The notes below the pieces were generated by a model, which was given only the letters and a program-made list of their open reading frames with translations, searched no databases and was not told the DNA's origin. From the NCBI GenBank assembly GCA_001770475.1, contig MERB01000007.1, forward strand, positions 202-41,357: a DNA stretch of 41,156 nucleotides, in the 5' to 3' direction. Shown piece by piece: positions 7,172 through 22,897 of this stretch. A program made the translations under genes and the position numbers. The stretch comes from Betaproteobacteria bacterium RIFCSPLOWO2_02_FULL_66_14 (lineage in GTDB: Bacteria > Pseudomonadota > Gammaproteobacteria > Burkholderiales > SG8-39). Within the stretch, counting starts at the first letter, position 1; the number at the start of each line of letters is the position of its first letter.

Positions 7172-7239
7172 GCTGCATCTCCTCTTGTCCCTGCTGCCGT
7201 TCCGCCAAGGGCGGCGCGGCATCGCGGGTTTACCGATCT

Positions 7240-7285
7240 CTGCCGACTTCGAAGTTTCGCGCGCGCGAAACTTCGAAGTCGGCAG
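7240..7285. repeat. Perfect 46-bp palindrome in the fadE-fadI gap
   Basis: ctgccgacttcgaagtttcgcgc / gcgcgaaacttcgaagtcggcag, 23-bp arms, no mismatches; flanked by ACCGAT at 7232-7237 and 7286-7291. Confidence 0.95.
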
Positions 7286-7340
7286 ACCGATGGAGTCAAA
7301 ACCGCGTTATCGTTTCCAATGGAACGGTCTCATCCAACCT

Positions 7341-20291: not shown

Positions 20292-20338
20292 GCGCGGCAG
20301 TATATCGAGCGTAGAATTTGCGCCAGCCAGGAGCTCGC

Positions 20339-21856
<1,518 letters not shown>

Positions 21857-21934
21857 GCCGCACCCGAACTTTCCGGCGGTCCCGCGTGCTGGCTCGAGGA
21901 TCTGGCGTCCTGAGTCACAAGTTCGCATACGGAT

Positions 21935-22090
21935 ATTCCCCGTTTCTGGTCCGATCTCGTGATTCCCTGCGCTTCTCGGCGTTGCGGGGAATCATGAGAC
22001 ACCGAAGCGACCCTCGGGCACGAACATGGCCCACGGCGCACCGCCGTGGCTGCAGTGTCTCGGGAGTTCGGCAACAACGGCCGAAGTCCC
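21935..22090 (+). ncRNA. Putative structured RNA / hairpin array between mmsA and the TA module
   Basis: Three consecutive stem-loops (21955-21999; 22031-22049; 22062-22090) plus competing pairings (21935-21942 with 21985-21992; 21996-22002 with 22055-22061); no convincing ORF. Confidence 0.5.
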
Positions 22091-22162
22091 GGGATCGAAG
22101 AAAACCATCACGGATTTCGGACTCGGCACGCTGGCGGGCCGGCGCGTACGCGTGCTAGCATA

Positions 22163-22182
22163 CCAACTGGTTGTCTAGTTGG
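22163..22182. promoter_or_regulatory. Candidate autoregulatory operator of the TA module
   Basis: CCAACT-N8-AGTTGG; right arm overlaps the GGAGG Shine-Dalgarno sequence of the antitoxin. Confidence 0.55.
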
Positions 22183-22190
22183 AGGTGGGG

Positions 22191-22448
22191 ATGGGCATCA
22201 CCGTGGGCGCCTTTGAAGCCAAGACCAAGCTGGCCGAACTGCTCGACAAGGTCGAGGCCGGCGAAACGGTCACGATTACGCGCCGGGGCAGGGCCGTGGC
22301 GCAGCTCGTGATCGTGAAACCGCAGGATGAACAGGAGCGGATGCGTAAGCTCATCGAGGAAATCAAACGGACGCGCGTGGGCCGGGACCGGGGCGCCGGT
22401 CCGGGCACCACGATCCGGGAACTGGTCCGGGCAGGGCGCAAGTACTGA
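22191..22448 (+). CDS. Phd/YefM family antitoxin
   Basis: MGITVGAFEAKTKLAELLDKVEAGETVTITRRGRAVAQLV; GGAGG 5 nt upstream; stop overlaps the next ATG. Confidence 0.92.
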   Translation: MGITVGAFEAKTKLAELLDKVEAGETVTITRRGRAVAQLVIVKPQDEQERMRKLIEEIKRTRVGRDRGAGPGTTIRELVRAGRKY

Positions 22449-22897
22449 TGTCGCTCGTGGTCGACTGCTCGGTGACCTTGCCGTGGTTTCTCGAGGACGA
22501 GCGCAGCAGATTCACCGATCGGCTGCTGGGCGCCATAGACCGGGCCGAGTATTGGGCGCCATCGGTTTGGCGACTCGAGATGCTCAACGGCTTGTTGATG
22601 GCGGAGCGCCGCAAGCGCATCGACAGGGCGTGGCGCATCGAGTCGGTCGACCAGATTGCGCGCTTGAACCTGCGCATCGACCCGACGCTGCCGAACGTGA
22701 TGGCGATCGGGGCCTTGGCGGAGCGCCATGGCCTGAGTGCATACGACGCCGCCTATCTCGAACTGGCGAAACGGCAGGGATTCGCGCTTGCCACGCTTGA
22801 CCGCGATCTCGTACGGGCCGGCGCTGCGGAGGGGATGGCAGTGCAGTCGCCCGGCCGTTCAGGCGTGGCGCAGAAGCCCCGGCGCTACAATATCTAG
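22448..22897 (+). CDS. vapC: VapC-type PIN domain toxin
   Basis: MSLVVDCSVTLPWFLEDE...WRLEMLNGLL...HGLSAYDAAYLELAKRQGFALATLDRDL. Confidence 0.93.
   Translation: MSLVVDCSVTLPWFLEDERSRFTDRLLGAIDRAEYWAPSVWRLEMLNGLLMAERRKRIDRAWRIESVDQIARLNLRIDPTLPNVMAIGALAERHGLSAYDAAYLELAKRQGFALATLDRDLVRAGAAEGMAVQSPGRSGVAQKPRRYNI

Follow-up and report, generated by a model that had tools for sequence, protein, structure and literature searches.

A hairpin array downstream of mmsA as a very probable IS630-type MITE carrying an older, clade-restricted pair of palindromes

The hairpin array located between mmsA and a Phd/VapC toxin–antitoxin module in Betaproteobacteria bacterium RIFCSPLOWO2_02_FULL_66_14 is very probably one copy of a non-autonomous IS630-type element (MITE) of approximately 233 bp. 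The window, i.e., the whole stretch of 41,156 nucleotides that was analyzed, contains one such copy, of which the parts and the flanking genes are listed in Table 1. The interior of the element, its cargo, is older than the MITE itself, but the role inferred for this cargo is much less certain than the identity of the MITE. Tentatively, the interior is regarded as a previously undescribed, clade-restricted palindrome pair that is under strand-symmetric selection for hairpins, either as a DNA cruciform or in both transcripts. It would have been held for a long time at orthologous operon positions, for example in the gap of an RND efflux operon across three genera, and would secondarily have been captured by IS630-type ends and spread. 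The way in which the two palindromes stay complementary in relatives favors folded DNA over a regulatory RNA made from one strand.

Table 1. Parts of the element in the window and its flanking genes.
Feature	Position	Strand	Basis
Whole non-autonomous IS630-type element (MITE, very probable), including flanking tetranucleotides	21902..22134	+	About 19 aligned copies with abrupt common ends; empty site at another copy
Left terminal inverted repeat GCGTCCTGAGTC	21905..21916	+	Matches the ends of IS630-family insertion sequences in L207 and L198
Right terminal inverted repeat GACTCGGCACGC	22120..22131	-	Copy alignment
Core double-palindrome unit, also in genomes without CTAG ends	21943..22104	+	Covariance models R1 and R2 (R2 match over these positions, 112.8 bits)
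Palindrome 1 (stem a), TCTCG-arm-loop-arm'-(C/T)GAGA	21955..21999	+	
Linker; contains copy-specific hairpin (b), 22031-22049	22000..22057	+	
Palindrome 2 (stem c, extended to the TCTCG base)	22058..22094	+	
CoA-acylating methylmalonate-semialdehyde dehydrogenase (mmsA), flanking	20318..21856	+	TIGR01722, 717 bits
Phd/YefM-type antitoxin, flanking	22191..22448	+	PF02604, TIGR01552
PIN-domain (VapC-like) toxin gene	22448..22897	+	PF01850

Outside the MITE, just before the start of the Phd-type antitoxin gene, the window holds an inverted repeat CCAACT...AGTTGG (22163-22182), which is a plausible operator of the toxin–antitoxin module.

The genome of origin (G000) is a fragmented bin of 2.43 Mb in 62 contigs, 87% complete. 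About 19 long copies of the element, at 86-92% identity, are dispersed over it together with fragments, and none of them carries a transposase of its own, the element being too short for one. In the alignment of these copies abrupt common ends are seen, with CTAGCGTnCTGAGTC at the left and its inverse at the right, and these define the limits of the element. In the window copy, 227 bp lie between the duplicated dinucleotides. The 15-bp inverted ends, CTAGYGTNCTGAGTC, are the same as those of a 1.17-kb insertion sequence of the IS630 family in relatives (L207, L198). The end motif occurs 16 times in the own genome versus 0 times for a reversed-pattern control, and in a search of 98 genomes of the family, pairs of it approximately 1.17 kb apart were found in two (G017 and G027). 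The segments of about 1.17 kb encode transposases of 361 and 378 amino acids (DDE_3) that match the IS630 model NF033545 (E 3e-84 in L207 and 1e-79 in L198). This transposase was found neither in the own genome, as far as its 87% completeness reaches, nor in four congeners, which leaves more distant relatives as the presumed source of the donor. An autonomous partner in the same genome is not strictly required, as mobilization may lie in the past. In one genome (G101; L195, L217) a different element of 189 bp has the same CTAGTGTCCTGAGTC ends and would seem to be a second MITE belonging to this IS630 group. At one position on contig C10 of the own genome (L016/L021), an extra partial copy of the right part of the element lies beside a full copy, with a run of N between them.

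It is the combination of IS630-matching ends with an empty CTAG site that identifies the element as an IS630-type MITE. ISY100, a member of the IS630 family, inserts almost exclusively into TA, which becomes duplicated (PMC2170065), and for IS630 itself the title of Tenzen and Ohtsubo (1991), as cited in PMC2170065, gives the TA of CTAG as the preferred target. The empty site belongs to a copy flanked by terC and an rsmB-like gene, not to the copy in the window. In three congeners (G002, G003, and G004) the joined flanks of this site align straight through, and a single CTAG forms the overlapping stop codons of the two convergent genes. In the own genome the element is present at this position with CTAG on each side (L013). 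At four loci (L004, L007, L013, and L014) the two CTAGs provide TAG stops to both convergent genes. The window copy itself is flanked by CTGG on both sides, which counts against the account of insertion into CTAG. At the left end, CTGG replaces CTAG in five copies (L003, L008, L010, L016, and the window copy), a number that random decay would not account for. The window has 16 CTAGs where 124 are expected, an about eightfold depletion, and 4 of the 16 lie at stop codons; this depletion and this position help to explain why surviving insertions are found at gene ends. An enrichment of TAG stops was also seen at the copies of another genome, G019, although it is modest only (13 of 21). In the mechanism proposed, an IS630-type transposase acting in trans would have transferred the element into the TA within CTAG by a cut-and-paste route. 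With CTAG being rare and often located at stop codons, insertions would survive at the 3′ ends of genes with their TAG stops intact. Targeting of CTAG at stop codons illustrates a way in which two overlapping convergent genes can receive a transposon between them and stay undamaged.

A preliminary description of this DNA had considered positions 21935-22090 a candidate structured RNA, with a palindromic repeat of high copy number, or the remnant of a mobile element, as a fallback. The copy number, the IS630-type ends and the empty site bear out the fallback. The hairpins are real, but the feature is larger than these positions. All quoted arms are present in the window, and no convincing open reading frame covers them, the overlying frames not being gene-like. 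Stem (a) (21955-21971 with 21983-21999) indeed has 17 pairs, three of which are G-U on the + strand; hairpin (b) is perfect in the window copy and hairpin (c) (22062-22090) has 10 of its 11 positions paired. Folding of the + strand from 21925 to 22100 yields -86.3 kcal/mol, with a z-score of -4.60 and none of 200 shuffles as good, and the - strand is structured as well (z -2.63), which indicates hairpin structure beyond chance.

When the same-genome copies are compared, these parts behave differently. Stems (a) and (c) are conserved across about 18 copies. Hairpin (b) is perfect in the window copy only, the other copies having CCACCGCG or CCTACGCG. Two mutually exclusive pairings with the right arm of stem (a) had been proposed as well. 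The first, between 21935-21942 and 21985-21992, is a coincidence because its left arm ATTCCCCG is nearly private to the window copy, the other copies having AATAGTCCGCG. The second, GAGACAC with GTGTCTC, is conserved among copies, and the CAC and GTG ends of the linker lengthen it. A conserved four-way junction in all copies was considered too. It had RNAalifold support on a near-identical set, but is not claimed, as only two hairpins are left on a diverse set and the outer stem and linker pairing are weak.

The three wobbles of stem (a), from which a switchable + strand RNA had been argued, consist of one that is common to most MITE copies, one that is private to the window copy and one that closes the loop; the argument rests on decay of the arms of MITE copies. 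A functional + strand RNA, be it an element of the mmsA 3′ UTR, a leader of the toxin–antitoxin operon, a small RNA or a switch, repeated by chance, would account for the strong fold of this strand (z -4.6) and for pairs with two-sided changes, and almost every copy is placed so that at least one transcript would read across it. It is nevertheless highly improbable. No Rfam family matches the window at the gathering threshold and none credibly matches the feature at a relaxed threshold, while a search of 12 other loci at the gathering threshold gave nothing credible either. Only the window copy has hairpin (b) and one of the two alternative pairings, and the arms of MITE copies decay one-sidedly. 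The window hairpins are not a stand-alone RNA gene, and any RNA hairpin that they form in the 3′ UTR of mmsA is probably incidental.

The 31 hairpin pairs, examined over 27 diverse copies, are paired in 98.8% of cases, and 21 of them show two-sided changes. Two-sided changes occupy 151 cells versus 52 in shuffles, counted as cells of related copies and not as independent events. Covariation amounts to 0.481 versus 0.139 in shuffles and is destroyed by sliding the partner. Covariation, which the preliminary description had proposed to look for, is strong for stems (a) and (c), yet it is strand-symmetric. Watson–Crick pairs occupy 798 of the 810 hairpin cells in the old copies, G-U occupies 3 and A-C 6. 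If only a + strand RNA required the structure, G-U pairs should be tolerated, which they are not in the old copies, and G-U is equally rare in operon loci that are read one way. Instead, the palindromes of the old copies are kept perfectly complementary, symmetrically on both strands, while their sequence drifts. This symmetry suggests that the constrained form is likely an extruded DNA hairpin, or else hairpins that both transcripts require where convergent genes end.

Complementarity of the arms was further followed at three orthologous positions, i.e., the gap of an RND (mexEF-type) operon (G001, G003, G005, and G123), a position next to a PEP-mutase gene (G000, G003, and G004) and the C24 locus (G000 and G003). 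The flanking proteins are 66-92% identical in full-length comparisons, and shared descent is a simpler explanation than independent insertion at the same place. In pairwise comparisons of hairpin cells at these loci, 71 two-sided Watson–Crick changes were counted versus 5 other changes. The MITE copies differ. Their departures from the consensus are one-sided rather than two-sided in a ratio of 13:1, versus 3:18 in the copies of G019 (Fisher p 5e-6, with cells and not independent events as the units counted), which indicates that a palindrome does not keep its arms perfect automatically. The arms of the MITE copies, including the one in the window, appear to be decaying.

These ratios also bear on the proposal that the interior palindromes are kept perfect without selection, by arm-to-arm copying through template switching at quasi-palindromes. 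The near absence of one-sided intermediates in old copies fits this proposal. Recent MITE copies, however, do gain one-sided changes (13 versus 1), so arm correction is not fast, and the variable positions are confined, the TCTCG feet and a mid-arm TTTC being conserved. Copying between the arms is thus considered rather unlikely to be the explanation, and strand-symmetric selection remains the preferred reading of the old copies.

The interior unit exists independently of the MITE. A covariance model detected homologues without CTAG ends in about a dozen genomes, all from a single uncultured family of betaproteobacteria, referred to as SG8-39 after one named member, LJTQ01. These homologues have two palindromes, inverted relative to each other, with TCTCG/CGAGA feet and a linker between them, and are located at the 3′ ends of genes. 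Among 399 sampled genomes of the order, model R2 detected none in the approximately 386 outside the family. In a scan of 85k genomes for the junction pattern, all true copies came from SG8-39-type MAGs of betaproteobacteria; the other matches have no complementary hairpin and look like chance. In G001, eight tandem units with a period of 170 bp, which differ from each other by two-sided arm changes, lie in an RND efflux operon, between its adaptor gene and its pump gene (L108 4104-5449, G001:C203). In G019, a fabI-ppiD-type convergent gene pair carries the unit, whereas in the eight relatives examined the genes abut without it, which means that core-only copies were also gained in the lineage of G019. 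The cargo can be described as an older, family-restricted REP-like unit of two inverted palindromes. Elsewhere in the window (7215-7312), a related solo palindrome (CGATCT...GCCGACTTCGAAGTTTCGCG/CGCGAAACTTCGAAGTCGGC...ACCGATGG) lies between codirectional acyl-CoA dehydrogenase-like and thiolase-like frames, with a DNA fold z-score of -7.8 and an R2 E value of 2e-5. It has one weaker relative, on G000:C37.

With regard to neighboring genes, 28 of 46 copies lie between convergent genes (2 of these 28 contexts resting on one called neighbor only, at contig ends), 17 between codirectional genes and 1 between divergent genes, versus 9:67:22 (convergent:codirectional:divergent) for background neighboring pairs without the unit (Fisher p 1e-10). 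A simple script based on codon bias was used to call the genes for this comparison, and the context of an individual copy may therefore be incorrect. The convergent excess is also found in non-MITE copies (13 of 25, p 8e-6). Many copies are within about 30 bp of stop codons, and each palindrome faces its own gene.

This placement is the basis of the main rival to the favored reading of the cargo as DNA hairpins or hairpins in both transcripts. The interior unit could be a pair of bidirectional 3′-end RNA hairpins, involved in protection of mRNA 3′ ends or control of read-through, both where genes converge and between the genes of operons, and selected in both transcripts, a possibility that carries appreciable but lesser weight. 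The convergent excess, the proximity to stops and the orientation of each palindrome toward its own gene all agree with it, and selection in both transcripts would also remove G-U pairs. However, codirectional loci, where mainly one strand is expected to be transcribed, are equally strand-symmetric. Moreover, the window copy has no T-run of the kind expected of an intrinsic terminator, and the placement near stops may partly reflect CTAG targeting.

Location at 3′ ends between convergent and codirectional genes is also what is described for REPs (PMC3733652). Together with the inverted palindrome pair and the tandem array of 170-bp period in G001, it could suggest a REP/BIME mobilized by a RAYT. 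This explanation is given hardly any weight, and the link was rejected on tag and transposase, though placement is REP-like. No Y1 transposase was found in the own genome, and the RAYT-like genes of relatives are not flanked by the double-palindrome unit. Many copies near RAYT or IS genes had been named as the sign of a REP or MITE; the many copies exist, the link with RAYT genes was not found. The feet are GATCTCG/CGAGAC in nearly all aligned copies, with a GTAG or CGTC tag in none, and the stems measure about 15 bp or more versus 5-13 bp. Near some RAYT-like genes of relatives (L138, L143, and L144), hairpins of the type GGGGTCAGA(C/G)CCC occur, which are probably the true REPs of the SG8-39-like family.

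A candidate riboswitch-like RNA is hereby turned into an explained mobile repeat, and a false call of an RNA gene is averted. In addition, the copies form a natural experiment in which one double palindrome keeps its arms in step at old orthologous loci and decays in recently spread copies. The ratio of G-U to A-C departures separates constraint at the level of DNA or of two strands from constraint on a one-strand RNA, and can be used on other debated REP-like repeats.

Several known repeats resemble the element in part. The intrastrand-triplex repeats (PMC4666352) were set aside, as their published consensus differs. RUP, the repeat unit of pneumococcus, is a MITE related to IS630-Spn1 (PMC2229807). 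Like RUP, the element is a small, gene-free intergenic repeat with inverted ends, which in RUP are proposed targets of an IS630-family transposase. In contrast to RUP, it is twice as long, is located at CTAG stop codons, has no transposase found in the same genome, and carries as cargo a double palindrome that relatives also have without the MITE ends. The GTAG and CGTC families of REP/BIME (PMC3733652) share with it the inverted palindrome pairs or arrays at 3′ ends of convergent or codirectional genes, close to stops. The unit described here differs by the lack of a GTAG/CGTC tag, by its longer stems, by arms that drift yet remain complementary and by the absence of an associated RAYT. The CIR repeats of Caulobacter, as presented in a review (PMC2229807), likewise consist of two long inverted repeats, forming two arms and a linker, in intergenic regions. 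However, CIR typically has a GANTC motif in its loop, which the present unit does not conserve, the host is a betaproteobacterial family and the length is about 160 bp versus about 110 bp. Finally, as with the ERIC and NEMIS (Correia) MITEs (PMC2229807), a transcript of the element would fold and could affect the neighboring mRNA, but those elements fold mainly end-to-end, whereas the element described here is dominated by two separate hairpins.
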